DNA from: a bacterium | GTDB lineage: Bacteria > UBP6 > UBA1177 > JAKLFG01 | DNA: 40,359 nt | Assembly: GCA_029573155.1 (NCBI GenBank) | Contig: JAKQHE010000256.1 | Span: 1-40,359, forward strand | Reading direction: 5' to 3' | In this document: positions 7,444 through 13,061 of the stretch, piece after piece | Position numbering within the stretch: position 1 is the first letter of the stretch | Layout of the letters: each line of letters begins with the position of its first letter | Made by a program: the position numbers and the translations under genes | Notes under the pieces: generated by a model | Seen by the model: the letters and a program-made list of their open reading frames with translations, nothing else | Told to the model about the DNA's origin: nothing | Databases searched by the model: none

Positions 7444-7519
7444 GGGCCGGTAGCTCAGTAGGTAGAGCACCTGACTTTTAATTAGGTGGTCCTGGGTTCG
7501 AATCCCCGCCGGCTCACCA
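7444..7519 (+). tRNA. tRNA-Lys (anticodon TTT), CCA encoded
   Basis: The acceptor stem GGGCCGG pairs with CCGGCTC (one G-U pair). The anticodon arm is CCTGA-CTTTTAA-TTAGG with loop anticodon TTT, and the T arm contains GGTTCGAATCC. The 3' CCA is encoded at 7517-7519 and is followed at once by CTTTTTT. Confidence 0.95.
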
Positions 7520-7531
7520 CTTTTTTGGGAC

Positions 7532-7606
7532 GACCCCATCGTCTAGCGGTTAGGACGCCGGCCTTTCACGTCGGTAGCACCGGTTCAAATCCGGTTGGGG
7601 TCGCCA
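7532..7606 (+). tRNA. tRNA-Glu (anticodon TTC), CCA encoded
   Basis: The acceptor stem GACCCCA pairs perfectly with TGGGGTC. The anticodon arm is CCGGC-CTTTCAC-GTCGG with anticodon TTC, and the T loop is GGTTCAAATCC. The discriminator base is G and CCA is encoded at 7604-7606. The gene is 12 bp after tRNA-Lys and almost certainly cotranscribed with it. A run of six T follows (7608-7613) and touches the stop codon of the convergent gene. Confidence 0.95.
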
Positions 7607-7612
7607 CTTTTT

Positions 7613-9097
7613 TCAGTAGTTCTTCTCGCTGAACAGTTCGACCTGAAAGACCGACAGCTGGGTGGCGTTGTCCTTGTAGCAGTCGCGCGGGAGTCCCGCC
7701 TTCTGTGCGCAGAGTTCGCCGAGGAAGGTGTCGATGTCCCACCCGGTCTCCTCGGCGACCTGCGGCAGAAAGACACCGCCGCGATAGCCGTTCCGGGCGA
7801 TGACGCCGTCGCGCTTGAGTACCACCTTTTTGTAGGTGTCGATCCTCTGCGGCGGGGTGAGTATCGATATCTCTATCTCGATATCCCGCATCTCATCCTG
7901 CTTGACCGGAGTAAAGCGCGGATCGTGGAAGGCGGCCGAGTTCGCCATCTCGGCGACCGCCAGATAGAGCGGGCCGCGCGCCTCGAGTTGCCCGATGCAG
8001 CCGCGCAGGTCGCCATGCTTTTTGAGCGTCACGAAGACGGCGCGGTCGGCGGTCAGTACCCCCTTCGCCGGTTTTTCGGGAACGAACTCCTTCCCGGTTC
8101 TCAAGGCATGTTCTATGCTTTTGCGCGCCAGGTCAAGAAGATATTTCCGTTCCTCAGTGGTCGTCTGGGCACCCGGCTTTGATCCCTCATTCACCGTGCC
8201 GCCCTTGTTTTTCTCGAAGATGACGGCGCCGTAGCCAACCACCCCGCCGGGACGCGATTCCTGCACGACATCGCCCGAGTTCTCCGCTTTGACGAGCGTA
8301 CCGCTGGTCACGCCGTAGTGTTCGAGTATCCGTGCCGCGAGGTGAAAGGCGTGATAGCCGCACGCCTCACAGGCGCCCGACGCTATCTTGCCGCGCAACT
8401 CTTCCCACTTCCCCTCGCTTATGAGATGAAGCGTTTCGCCGTCCATCTTGGCGGCGGTGTGATAATCGTGGTAGTGCGACAGATCGGTGCTCACGACGAT
8501 GAGCACTTTCTTTTTTGATGCCTCGATCACGGCGATCAGTTCCTTCGCGAACCGGTCGAGCGTCGCGCGGTCGGCGGTCGCGGTGAGCACCGGCACCATC
8601 GAGAAGTTCCCGAGCCGCTCCTGCAGGAACGGGAGTTGCGCCTCAATGCTGTGTTCCGGTCCATGGATCTCGGCGCTTTGGACGAAACGCTTATCCGCCC
8701 TCGCGAGCCGGTCGGTCATCGCGCGGTCGACCGGCACGGTCCCGAGCGGTGTCCGGAACGCGGCGGCGGGAGAGAGCGCCACGACGCCGTTCTGGAACGA
8801 GTGGCTTGTGCCGAGTATGACGACGACATCGAACTGTTTCGGCTTCAGACCGGCGTAGGCGTGGGCTGCCACCCGGCCCGAATAGACGAACCCGGCGTGT
8901 GGCGCGACGATGATAAAGGGCTGGAGTCCTTTCGCCGTGCTGTCGAACGGCACCTGCGCGAACAGTCCCGCCACCTGCGCCCGGAGCGCCTGCGGGTCGG
9001 CGGAATACCACTGCCCGGCGCGGGCCGGTTCACGGATATCGGCAGCGTACAGGGACAAAAAGAAGAGAAAGGGAACGGTCAGCAGGGCGTTCCTCAT
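7613..9097 (-). CDS. Exported MEMO-AMMECR1 fusion protein (AmmeMemoRadiSam family)
   Basis: The 494-residue protein joins two families usually found with a radical SAM enzyme. Residues about 20-295 are MEMO-like, with H67 (PHAGF), H99 (GTSHS), D205/H208 (STDLSHYHD) and C246 matching the conserved metal-site residues. Residues about 312-490 are AMMECR1-like with the signature LRGCIG at 364-369. Before them is a signal peptide (MRNALLTVPFLFFLSLYAA), so the fusion should be periplasmic. The ATG at 9097 follows an 11-base perfect match to the 16S rRNA 3' end (GGAGGTGATCC). The gene follows pal by 33 bp and appears to end the Tol-Pal operon. The biochemical role of the family is not settled. No radical SAM partner gene is in the window. 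Confidence 0.9.
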   Translation of the reverse strand: MRNALLTVPFLFFLSLYAADIREPARAGQWYSADPQALRAQVAGLFAQVPFDSTAKGLQPFIIVAPHAGFVYSGRVAAHAYAGLKPKQFDVVVILGTSHSFQNGVVALSPAAAFRTPLGTVPVDRAMTDRLARADKRFVQSAEIHGPEHSIEAQLPFLQERLGNFSMVPVLTATADRATLDRFAKELIAVIEASKKKVLIVVSTDLSHYHDYHTAAKMDGETLHLISEGKWEELRGKIASGACEACGYHAFHLAARILEHYGVTSGTLVKAENSGDVVQESRPGGVVGYGAVIFEKNKGGTVNEGSKPGAQTTTEERKYLLDLARKSIEHALRTGKEFVPEKPAKGVLTADRAVFVTLKKHGDLRGCIGQLEARGPLYLAVAEMANSAAFHDPRFTPVKQDEMRDIEIEISILTPPQRIDTYKKVVLKRDGVIARNGYRGGVFLPQVAEETGWDIDTFLGELCAQKAGLPRDCYKDNATQLSVFQVELFSEKNY

Positions 9098-9130: not shown

Positions 9131-9850
9131 TCAATTGACGCGGACGAACTCGGCGCGTCTGTTCTGGAACCACGCATCCTCGTTCTGCCCCGAGGCGATG
9201 GGCCGCTCCTCTCCGTATGAAACGATCTGGAACCGTTTGGCGTCCACGCCCAATTTCATCAGTTCGTCGCGTACCTCCTGGGCCCGCCGCTCGCCGAGCG
9301 ACATGTTGTAATCGATGCTCCCGCGTTCGTCGGCGTGCCCCTCGACGCGGATGGCCGCCGCCGGGAAGTTCACCATCCATTCGGCCATGATCTTGAGGAG
9401 CGGCTTATCTTCCTCGCGCACCGCGTACTCATTGAACTCGAAATGAATGACGGGGAACTTCATGTTGGGATCCTTCGACGAAAGCGTCTCCTCGGAGATC
9501 GCCCCGTCATCCACGCCCGCCGTCCGCTGGGCGACCTTTTCCTTTTTCACCTTCGGGTCGCATTCGTCGGGGTGGGACCGGACATACGCGGCGATCTTTT
9601 CGGCCTTTTCCTTGGCGGAAAGGAAAAGTTTCTTCGCCTCGTCGTACCTCTTAGCATTGACCGCCTCGCGCGCCTTCATCAGCAATTCCTCCGCCGCGAG
9701 GAAATCCTCGCGGGCGCAGTCCTTGCCCGAAAGCGCGTCTTTGAACGCCTTTTCGGCGAGTCGCCGTTCGTCCTCGGGCGACTTCATGCCACAGCCGGGG
9801 CCGCACAGTATCGCGACGACCGCCAGAATGATGATGCCGTACCGGGTCAT
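9131..9850 (-). CDS. pal: Peptidoglycan-associated lipoprotein Pal
   Basis: Pal anchors the outer membrane to peptidoglycan and interacts with TolB. The 239-residue product has a signal peptide ending near a Cys (ILCGPGC). The lipobox is not perfect: C16 and C20 are both possible lipidation sites. A helical linker follows (about 25-105), longer than in E. coli Pal. An OmpA-like domain (about 130-239) carries the diaminopimelate-binding signature around VEGHADERGSIDYNMSLGERR and a C-terminal NRRAEF. The ATG at 9850 is preceded by AAGGAGGAGG, 20 bp after the tolB stop. Position after tolB confirms the assignment. Confidence 0.93.
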   Translation of the reverse strand: MTRYGIIILAVVAILCGPGCGMKSPEDERRLAEKAFKDALSGKDCAREDFLAAEELLMKAREAVNAKRYDEAKKLFLSAKEKAEKIAAYVRSHPDECDPKVKKEKVAQRTAGVDDGAISEETLSSKDPNMKFPVIHFEFNEYAVREEDKPLLKIMAEWMVNFPAAAIRVEGHADERGSIDYNMSLGERRAQEVRDELMKLGVDAKRFQIVSYGEERPIASGQNEDAWFQNRRAEFVRVN

Positions 9851-9869: not shown

Positions 9870-11183
9870 TTACTGGGTGATCGTCACTTCAGGCGACCAC
9901 GACGGCGTGATCGCCTCGCCCGTTCCGCCGTATATCTTTCTCTGGCGGTCCCCGGCGAGATTGGTGACCCAGATGCCGTTCTTCCCCGTCCGGTCGGAAG
10001 AGAAAACCATGAGCGCGCCGTCGGGCGAGAACGACGGGTTCTCGTTCTTCCCTTGTTTCTGTGTCACGCGCGATATGGTCCGCGCCTGCAGGTCGAACAG
10101 GAAGATGTCGAACATGAAGAACTCGTCGCGCCCCGTAAAGGCGATGTATCGACCATCAGGCGCGTAGTCTGGATCCTGATTGTATTTACCCTGATCGGTC
10201 AGACGCTCCACCCGTGCCGGATCGTTCACGAACAGGCGGTAAATGTGCGGATTGCCCGAACGGTTCGATACGAAGGCGATCTCCTTGCCGTCGGGGCTGA
10301 AAGATGGCGCGGTATCTATCGCGATGTTGCTCGTAAGCCGCGTGAGCGCCTTGGACGCGAGGTTCATGAGGTAGATCTCGGCATTGCCGTCCTTGGAAAG
10401 ACGCAGTGCTATGTTCTTGCCGTCGGGCGCGGCCGAAGCGGAGGTGTTGAGCCCCGGATGGTCGGAAACGAGCGAGACCTTGCGGCTTTTGATGTCCACC
10501 GCATAGAGGTGAGGTTCCCCGGTGGTGTAGGCGGTGTAGAACAGGTGCGTCCCGTCGGCCGACCAGCCGGGAAGCGTGAGTATCTTGTCGCTCGTCACGA
10601 CCGCCGTCGCGTCGGCGCCATCGAAGTCGGCGACCATCAGTTTGTAGGTCTTCGCCTCTTTCTCTACGAAGGCAATGCGGCTCGAAAGGAATTTGAGCCG
10701 TATACCGGCCAGCGCCTGCACGAGATCGCGCACAAAGCCGTGCGGCGCCTTGCGGATGGCCTTCGCCGACGCTTTGTACTTCTTGTGGAGGATGCTTTTA
10801 CCGCCCGCCACATCGAATGCCTGCATCTCGAGTTCGATCGGGTCGGTCCCGGTGAGGGTCGCCTTGACGAGACCCTTCGCGCCGACCGTGAGCCAGTTCT
10901 TGAAGTTCACCTTATCGACCGGCACCGTGGGCGCCTCGATGAACGACCGCTCGTCGAGCACCTGAAAGTAGCCGGTCAGGTCCAGATCGCGGCGCAGGGT
11001 CTCGGTGAGGGCGCGCGCCAGTTCCCCGGTGGTGTCACCACTATGGACGAAGGCCGGCGCGGCGATGGCGTACGCGACGAGCGCCCCGTCGCGCACCTCG
11101 CCCTTGAGTTGCGCGTGAGCGGTCCCCCCGCACAGCGCCGTCAGCAACGCGAACATTACAGCGTACTTGAAGTGAAGCCCCAT
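9870..11183 (-). CDS. tolB: Tol-Pal system beta-propeller protein TolB
   Basis: TolB is the periplasmic component that links Pal with the TolQRA inner-membrane complex. The 437-residue protein starts with a signal peptide (cleavage after GGTAHA) and an N-terminal alpha/beta domain (about 25-160). A propeller follows with repeated WD40-like/PD40 motifs: SFSPDGKEIAFVSNRSG, DYAPDGRYIAFTGRDE and SFSPDGALMVFSSDRTG. I used the ATG at 11183, which has GGAGGG 6 bases upstream and overlaps the end of tolA by 28 bp. An in-frame ATG at 11156 overlaps the tolA stop (TAATG) but lacks a Shine-Dalgarno sequence and would shorten the signal peptide. Confidence 0.95.
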   Translation of the reverse strand: MGLHFKYAVMFALLTALCGGTAHAQLKGEVRDGALVAYAIAAPAFVHSGDTTGELARALTETLRRDLDLTGYFQVLDERSFIEAPTVPVDKVNFKNWLTVGAKGLVKATLTGTDPIELEMQAFDVAGGKSILHKKYKASAKAIRKAPHGFVRDLVQALAGIRLKFLSSRIAFVEKEAKTYKLMVADFDGADATAVVTSDKILTLPGWSADGTHLFYTAYTTGEPHLYAVDIKSRKVSLVSDHPGLNTSASAAPDGKNIALRLSKDGNAEIYLMNLASKALTRLTSNIAIDTAPSFSPDGKEIAFVSNRSGNPHIYRLFVNDPARVERLTDQGKYNQDPDYAPDGRYIAFTGRDEFFMFDIFLFDLQARTISRVTQKQGKNENPSFSPDGALMVFSSDRTGKNGIWVTNLAGDRQRKIYGGTGEAITPSWSPEVTITQ

Positions 11184-11914
11184 TGGAGTCCCTCCGTGAG
11201 CACATATTTCTTAAGTTGCCTGTCTTCCGGGAGCGGCAGTTTCGCCGTCAGTTTCACCGCCTCTATAACCGAACTGTCGAAATTGTTGTCGCCTGACGGC
11301 GTCACGACCTGCAGGTCGTACACCTCGCCCGACGGCGTGATGCGGAAGTATATCTCGGCCTTGAGCGTGGCGAGCAGATCGGGCGTGATAAGCGAGGGTA
11401 TCTTCCAGTTGCGGCGGATGAGTGCCGATATCTGCCGCACATAGAGACTGCCCTTCACCGCGAAGGCCGGGTCGGTCACATCACCGTCACGGACACCGTC
11501 GGGACTCCCCTCCTTCGTTTCCTCGGCGCGGGCGTCCTTCTTGATGTCCTTCAGTGCCTCGCCGAGCAGGGCGTTCAGGTCGGTCGCCTTTTTCGGCTCC
11601 TCTTTGCTTTTTTCGGGCTCCTTCTTTTTCTCCGGTTCTTTCAATGCGTTCGCCGCACCGACCTTCGGAGCCGCGACCTCCTCCTTTTTCACGACACGCG
11701 GCAGGAGTTTTTTGTCGCGCGGCTTTTCGCCGAACTTCACGAGCCGCGTTTCGACCGATTCGAACGCTATCTTGGGCGCCATGTTGAGATAGGCGCCGAT
11801 CGTCATGACGGCAAAGGCGACACCGACATGGAGCAGGAGCGACACGGCGGCGAACCGCTTCATGTGCCGCTTCTCGGCCTCGAAGACGGGCGCCGCGAAG
11901 ATATAGGACCTCAT
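11156..11914 (-). CDS. tolA: TolA/TonB-like energy-transducing protein
   Basis: The 252-residue protein has a cytoplasmic N-terminus, one transmembrane helix (about 20-42), a Lys/Glu-rich periplasmic segment (about 70-130) shorter than the long helix of E. coli TolA, and a C-terminal TonB-like domain (about 155-250, including IRRNWKIPSL and YFRITPSGEVYDLQVVTPSG). It should couple the proton-motive force sensed by TolQR to TolB-Pal at the outer membrane. The ATG overlaps the tolR stop as ATGA, with GAGGAGG just upstream. By domain alone it could be called TonB; location between tolR and tolB makes TolA the better name. Confidence 0.88.
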   Translation of the reverse strand: MRSYIFAAPVFEAEKRHMKRFAAVSLLLHVGVAFAVMTIGAYLNMAPKIAFESVETRLVKFGEKPRDKKLLPRVVKKEEVAAPKVGAANALKEPEKKKEPEKSKEEPKKATDLNALLGEALKDIKKDARAEETKEGSPDGVRDGDVTDPAFAVKGSLYVRQISALIRRNWKIPSLITPDLLATLKAEIYFRITPSGEVYDLQVVTPSGDNNFDSSVIEAVKLTAKLPLPEDRQLKKYVLTEGLQWGFTSSTL

Positions 11915-12333
11915 CCCTCCTCCTCGAGCGGATCGGTGACGAGATTTATCTTGGGGACCCCCGCTTTCTTGACTATCGCCATCACGCGGACCACATAGCC
12001 GTAGGAAAGCCGCTGGCTCGCGTAGAGGTACAACTCGCGGTCCTGCTGGAGTTTCGCGTTCGCCTTGAGTTTCGTCTCGAGTTCCTTGAGCGGTATCTCG
12101 GTCTTCTCTATGAATATCTTCTCGTTCTTGAAGATGCGCAGGATGAACTTGTCCTTCGGGTTCTCTATCGGGATGGTCTCGGTCTGCGGCAGGTCGAGAT
12201 CGACCCCCTGTTCTATCATCGGCGCCGCGACCATGAAGATGATGAGGAGCACGAGCATGATGTCTACCATCGGGGTGATATTTATCTCGGCGATCGGTCG
12301 ACGCTTCTTGCCGCCGTTCACTCCCATGCTCAT
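11911..12333 (-). CDS. tolR: Biopolymer transport protein TolR/ExbD
   Basis: This 140-residue protein has the ExbD/TolR layout: a short cytoplasmic basic N-terminus, a single transmembrane helix containing the conserved Asp (ITPMVDIMLVLLIIFMV) that takes part in proton flow, and a periplasmic domain. The start overlaps the tolQ stop as TGATG at 12333; a second ATG two codons later is possible. A longer in-frame reading upstream is only the alternative frame of tolQ. It acts with TolQ in the inner membrane as the proton-driven stator of the Tol-Pal complex. Confidence 0.94.
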   Translation of the reverse strand: MSMGVNGGKKRRPIAEINITPMVDIMLVLLIIFMVAAPMIEQGVDLDLPQTETIPIENPKDKFILRIFKNEKIFIEKTEIPLKELETKLKANAKLQQDRELYLYASQRLSYGYVVRVMAIVKKAGVPKINLVTDPLEEEG

Positions 12334-13061
12334 CAGACCGAACTCCGCTTTATCGAGTTGAGGAAGTCGCTCGTGATGTTCGCCGACTCGCCCTCTATCT
12401 TCTGTATGTTGCTCGTGAAGTAGTTGTAGCATATGGCTGCCGGTATCGCCGCGGCGAGCCCGAAGGCGGTCGCGATGAGCGCCTCCGATATCGCCGGCGC
12501 GATGGTGCCGAGCGTCGCGTTGCCGGTCTTGCCGATGATGTGGAATGCGTCCATGATGCCCCACACGGTGCCGAACAGCCCGATGAAGGGGGCCGAACTC
12601 GCCGTCGTCGCAAGGAGCGTAAGCGAGTTCTCGAGCAATTGGTTGCGGGTCTGCGACTCGCGCTTCATGGCGCGCTCGATGTTGGCGACCAGTTCGTCAA
12701 CCTTCGACCCGACGACGGTGATGCCCTTCGACTCCCACGACTTCTTGGTCTCGAAGAACTCCGAATAGCCGGCGCGAAACACGGTGGCGATGGGTGAATC
12801 CTGCAGTTTGTCGCTCCGGCGGTAGACCTCTTGGAAATCCATGTTCTTCCAGAAAAGTTCTATGAACTGTTCGGTGGCGACTATCGCGCGGCGGTGCTGG
12901 ATGAACTTGAATATGATGACGCCCCAGCAGAGGACCGACAGCAGGACGAGCCCGCCGAGGACGAGGTTTACCACGAGCGATGAATTCTTCACCACCTCGA
13001 CGATCGAGATGGCGGTCGCGGCGTTACCGATCGCGTCAAGGAGGAACGAGGTCATCTGCAT
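12333..13061 (-). CDS. tolQ: Biopolymer transport protein TolQ/ExbB
   Basis: This 242-residue MotA/TolQ/ExbB family protein has three transmembrane helices (about 30-52, 150-175 and 188-212). The conserved small-residue motif APFIGLFGTVWGIMDAF starts the second helix and a Thr/Ala-rich third helix follows (ALIATAFGLAAAIPA). TolQ forms the pentameric channel around TolR. The ATG at 13061 has AAGGAG 7 bases upstream. It is the first gene of tolQRAB-pal and has a good promoter just upstream. Confidence 0.95.
   Translation of the reverse strand: MQMTSFLLDAIGNAATAISIVEVVKNSSLVVNLVLGGLVLLSVLCWGVIIFKFIQHRRAIVATEQFIELFWKNMDFQEVYRRSDKLQDSPIATVFRAGYSEFFETKKSWESKGITVVGSKVDELVANIERAMKRESQTRNQLLENSLTLLATTASSAPFIGLFGTVWGIMDAFHIIGKTGNATLGTIAPAISEALIATAFGLAAAIPAAICYNYFTSNIQKIEGESANITSDFLNSIKRSSV

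Follow-up and report, generated by a model that had tools for sequence, protein, structure and literature searches.

The closest described system to the locus analysed here is AmmeMemoRadiSam, whose components A (AMMECR1 type), B (MEMO type) and radical SAM are recognised by the curated models TIGR04335, TIGR04336 and TIGR04337, with the radical SAM gene usually adjoining A and B. Human MEMO1 is an intracellular protein, the human counterparts of both MEMO and AMMECR1 are linked to disease, and radical SAM enzymes depend on SAM and on a [4Fe-4S] cluster in its reduced state, both regarded as cytoplasmic. Memo-Ammecr1 systems that include a radical SAM enzyme come up in a paper of 2020 (PMC7159879), which cites a 2019 superfamily survey. 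A full-text search of the open-access literature turned up no radical SAM enzyme described as periplasmic, exported or secreted, and an exported version of AmmeMemoRadiSam is apparently unreported.

The window, meaning the whole 40,359-nt stretch of DNA that was analysed, encodes a MEMO-AMMECR1 fusion with an N-terminal signal peptide. All three AmmeMemoRadiSam components are present in its genome above the curated cut-offs and with the same conserved residues. Unlike the described system, this one has export signals on its components, a fusion of A with B and, as a frequent neighbour, a membrane spermidine-synthase-like protein; the radical SAM gene is unlinked in the window's genome, although it lies in the same array in one relative (G004) and in the same polypeptide in another (L043). 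With a probability of roughly 0.7, the fusion is the B+A half of an envelope-targeted AmmeMemoRadiSam set, whose partner is a radical SAM enzyme encoded elsewhere with its own export or anchor sequence. AmmeMemoRadiSam is widespread in bacteria, and sequence comparison suggests that many of them keep both an inside-cell version and one in the envelope, a compartment for which no radical SAM chemistry is expected. Through the exported set and its conserved neighbours, the chemistry of MEMO and AMMECR1 becomes open to experiment.

Each part also resembles a better-known protein. The MEMO part shares its fold (Foldseek E 1.7e-19 to 1e-18) and conserved histidines with human MEMO1 and the PCAD-Memo dioxygenase superfamily (7kq8, 7l5c, 3bcz), but it is joined to AMMECR1 and apparently exported. 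The AMMECR1 part has the fold and LRGCIG motif of archaeal AMMECR1 proteins (1vaj, 1zq7, 1wsc), at 36-41% identity, whereas the solved structures are stand-alone chains. For the radical SAM partner, the next-best family is the pyruvate formate-lyase activating enzyme (TIGR02493), with which it shares the core CxxxCxxC; its score of 68.7 bits falls far under the cut-off of 231.75, however, and it has extra N- and C-terminal cysteine sets and an export signal.

The MEMO-AMMECR1 fusion and its signal peptide

The fusion gene (7613..9097, minus strand) is an open reading frame for 494 residues in which Pfam and NCBIfam models agree on two domains, as the original prediction had proposed. Residues 23-292 (8222..9031) form the MEMO domain (PF01875, E 1.5e-51), which scores 238.9 bits against TIGR04336 (AmmeMemoSam_B; cut-off 26). 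The AMMECR1 domain covers residues 322-489 (7631..8134; PF01871, E 8.6e-53; match to 1vaj, E 1.8e-34) and reaches 181.7 bits against TIGR04335 (AmmeMemoSam_A; cut-off 99). Foldseek pairs an AlphaFold model (pLDDT 87) with structures of archaeal AMMECR1 and of human MEMO1 bound to iron or copper (7kq8, 7l5c). Fusions of this kind occur in Omnitrophota, Acidobacteria, Bacteroidetes, Zixibacteria, KSB1, deltaproteobacterial, Chloroflexi and other genomes, the closest named relative being from a Cloacimonadota genome (42% identity).

The residues singled out by the original prediction, H67, H99, H208, C246 and LRGCIG, are indeed kept. The MEMO metal-site set consists of H67, H99 and C246, plus H208 and D205; in an alignment of relatives, H67 is present in 115 of 116, H99 in all 116 and C246 in 112 of 114, and H208 is likewise near-invariant (116-117 relatives). 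We take H67, H99 and C246 to be the counterparts of the human MEMO1 metal ligands H49, H81 and C244, the last of which is backed by the title of 7m8h. Within LRGCIG (residues 364-369; 7991..8008), L and G366 occur in 117/117 relatives, and R, C and G369 in 116/117.

Residues 1-19 (MRNALLTVPFLFFLSLYAA; 9041..9097) have a K/R start, a hydrophobic core and a small residue preceding the mature part. This stretch is only 26-37% identical to those of four family relatives, whereas the domains are 71-93% identical, and all family versions retain the K/R start and hydrophobic core. Export was scored throughout with our own heuristic script rather than SignalP; it called 17 of 741 internal pseudo-N-termini of the same proteins positive (2.3%) and none of 36 radical SAM enzymes in three all-cytosolic clades. 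Within the window, the controls TolB and Pal score as exported, and TolQ, UvrC and TetR do not. The claim of a signal peptide is thus borne out by the controlled test and by the divergent N terminus beside conserved domains, and export of the fusion through Sec is well supported by these sequence features.

Linkage to the Tol-Pal operon

The fusion gene is the last in a tolQRAB-pal operon and lies 33 nt 3' of pal on the same strand. Open reading frames and family comparison place tolQ at 12333..13061, tolR at 11911..12354 (start approximate, frame open to 12564), a tolA/tonB-like gene at 11156..11914 and tolB at 9870..11183, all on the minus strand; pal follows at 9131..9850 (minus strand), and its orthologs adjoin the fusion in four relatives (L039-L042). 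A promoter-like site lies upstream of tolQ, and none was found on the operon strand in the gap between pal and the fusion. Position, strand and promoter pattern agree with the predicted place at the end of the operon, and from them we infer co-transcription with tolQRAB-pal. On the plus strand, convergent genes for tRNA-Lys and tRNA-Glu (7444-7606) stop 7 nt before the fusion gene's end.

A survey of relatives shows that this linkage is real but local, the fusion being an operon neighbour in this one small family only. The arrangement recurs in 5/5 genomes of the window's family, across three genera, with identities as low as 70%. Outside the family, a complete tolQRAB-pal lies within 10 kb of the fusion at one of 80 named loci, about the chance expectation for 20 kb of a 3-Mb genome; Tol-Pal linkage as a general rule was accordingly rejected. 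That single case, in Zixibacteria (L118:16654-21193), is about 5 kb from the fusion and on the opposite strand.

The conservation within the family could mean that the linkage is functional and that the fusion acts directly for Tol-Pal, with envelope constriction and lipid homeostasis as examples of its task. We consider this quite improbable, given the absence of linkage beyond the family and a relative from the same order (L053) that has the system without Tol-Pal nearby. In G004, moreover, the fusion shares one co-directional array with tolQRAB-pal, the radical SAM gene and the gene of a membrane spermidine-synthase-like protein; since the radical SAM enzyme and its membrane partner flank the operon too, Tol-Pal looks embedded in the module. 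The envelope role that was originally hinted at from Tol-Pal is likely, though what speaks for it is the radical SAM partner exported alongside the fusion rather than Tol-Pal.

Two AmmeMemoRadiSam sets in one genome

The radical SAM partner had been described as absent. This holds for the window and fails for its genome, where a profile search found two TIGR04337 genes over the cut-off of 220 bits (401.8 and 223.6). One, on contig C203, starts with MDRRISSALILLILTLTPTFFYLSGR, a Sec-type signal or anchor, and groups in the tree with the family orthologs and with the enzymes of two sister-family genomes (L043 and L053). The other, on contig C283, groups on a long branch with the cytosolic-set radical SAM of G004 (L055). 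The window's genome also encodes another MEMO and another AMMECR1, as separate proteins that lack signals. In both sister-family loci, a single polypeptide comprises radical SAM, MEMO and a membrane segment at the N terminus, so that the radical SAM and MEMO domains should lie on the same side of the membrane. Gene content, tree groups, these fused forms and the G004 array together point to two AmmeMemoRadiSam sets, of which one is plain and the other bears export signals. Counting against the envelope set, the exported radical SAM gene and the fusion sit on different contigs in the window's genome.

The fused forms differ in extent. An 853-aa open frame at L043:456-3017 (minus strand) joins the membrane segment, radical SAM, MEMO and AMMECR1; at L053 radical SAM and MEMO are fused and AMMECR1 is the next gene.

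Probable co-export of the radical SAM enzyme and MEMO-AMMECR1

The pairing was followed across a sample of about 130 radical SAM loci (132 proteins in the tree). Where radical SAM and MEMO genes lie within 4 kb of each other, both partners score as exported in 42 pairs, both lack a signal in 9, and 14 are mixed (4 and 10 in the two directions; Fisher p 0.001). Several mixed pairs (L068, L106, L064) resemble missed lipoproteins or misread starts. In three Bacteroidales loci (L121, L125, L129) both partners are signal-less and their relatives have both signals, which suggests that the two were lost together. Exported radical SAM enzymes are strongly clustered on the tree (n=132), with 10 state changes needed. 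Exceptions are Prevotellaceae and a clade of ten, in which the radical SAM enzyme has no signal despite TatC where tested; at several of these loci the adjoining MEMO is exported.

The exported radical SAM enzyme looks intact from its sequence: the core CxxxCxxC is present in 70/70, and a further four cysteines each in the N- and C-terminal parts are near-invariant. This bears on whether the exported domains might be relics that bind metal or serve as scaffolds and carry out no radical chemistry, a suggestion that recalls human MEMO1, which binds reduced copper and whose active site was once considered enzymatically dead (PMC9477392, PMC7694686). With the radical SAM cysteine sets and the MEMO and AMMECR1 motifs as conserved as in the cytosolic copies, we regard that explanation as highly improbable.

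Two groups depart from the usual pairing in their own ways. One radical SAM clade (L192, L194, L197, L198, L199 and relatives) has very short, signal-less N termini with TatC present; several members have an exported MEMO adjacent, and in L194 and L198 the MEMO itself looks Tat-type. In Prevotellaceae (L110, L113, L114), MEMO-AMMECR1 is lipoprotein-like and the adjacent radical SAM is signal-less, again with TatC present.

Export route and TatC

The radical SAM partner appears to carry an export-type N terminus, of Tat type in genomes that have Tat and of Sec type in those that lack it. SRREFLK and its variants mark Tat-type signals on 47 of the 132 sampled enzymes, the other exported ones being Sec-type, and two of nine tested Tat-like enzymes pass the TIGR01409 cut-off. 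Among the 70 exported enzymes, 44 Tat-type signals come with TatC and 3 without; Sec-type signals number 20 without TatC and 3 with it. The association (Fisher p 1.6e-11) is weaker than its p-value implies, as only about five signal-type switches occurred on the tree; two well-supported independent pairs both run in the expected direction, a number too small to reach significance once ancestry is corrected for. These patterns are suggestive of signal type following TatC presence, and the association is good evidence that the radical SAM N termini are real export signals. TatC was not found in the window's genome, its whole family or the two sister-family genomes with fused forms. Three Omnitrophota enzymes look Sec-type despite TatC and count against an envelope set.

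A different arrangement would have MEMO-AMMECR1 alone exported, with the radical SAM enzyme anchored on the cytosolic face and modifying the fusion before export, much as an activase or maturase would. Known radical SAM enzymes use cytosolic SAM and reductant, and the hydrophobic N terminus of the enzyme in the window's genome could be the anchor of a cytosolic domain. Pyruvate formate-lyase activase models are the enzyme's next-best matches, and a signal-less enzyme is paired with exported MEMO at L110, L113, L114, L192, L197 and L199. The Tat-type signals, their tracking of TatC and the triple fusion at L043, which puts radical SAM and MEMO on the same membrane side, nevertheless make this arrangement unlikely.

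In two genomes, tatC lies directly beside a TIGR04337 gene: that of L085 (G315:C18:6456-8434) and a second one (G235:C95:44123-46011).

Conserved neighbours and a possible extracytoplasmic pathway

Exported radical SAM genes keep characteristic company. A spermidine-synthase-like polytopic protein is encoded within 5 kb of 34/70 exported and 4/59 cytosolic radical SAMs (p 9e-8), a DUF362 protein neighbours 17/70 exported and 0/59 others, and a DsbD_2 membrane protein 9/70 and 0/59, a contrast that is possibly somewhat inflated because the models were built from exported loci. The DUF362 protein is Tat-signalled in L181. In a structural model (pLDDT 87), the spermidine-synthase-like protein has 7 TM segments, then a soluble domain of some 300 residues, then 6 more TM segments, and the soluble domain matches the fold of polyamine aminopropyltransferase. 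Lysine and arginine are more frequent in the predicted inside loops (14.0) than in the outside loops (6.4), which predicts a periplasmic location for the domain.

If the fusion belongs to an envelope-targeted set, the radical SAM enzyme and MEMO-AMMECR1 would come together at the periplasmic surface of the cytoplasmic membrane. The enzyme, as a relative of pyruvate formate-lyase activase, would generate a 5'-deoxyadenosyl radical, which may attack a substrate bound at the MEMO metal site or a MEMO-AMMECR1 residue positioned there. SAM or decarboxylated SAM could be supplied or used by the spermidine-synthase-like protein, a DsbD-like carrier might provide electrons, and the end product would likely be a modified envelope molecule. 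We suggest only tentatively, at less than even odds, that this amounts to an extracytoplasmic radical pathway in dozens of lineages, with SAM or a derivative brought by the spermidine-synthase-like protein, electrons by the DsbD-like carrier and the substrate handled by MEMO-AMMECR1. We know of no SAM source and no [4Fe-4S] assembly in the periplasm, and the supply of both is the main doubt about an envelope set, sharpest for Sec-type enzymes. The signal-less radical SAM enzymes beside exported MEMO in some lineages add to that doubt.

In the window's genome, the exported radical SAM gene is followed immediately downstream by a spermidine-synthase-like gene, whose Pfam score of 20.2 bits is below the cut-off of 22.9. 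Both there (L036:4289-4660) and in G004 (L041:17592-18020), the exported radical SAM gene has a small PilZ-like gene on its 5' side.
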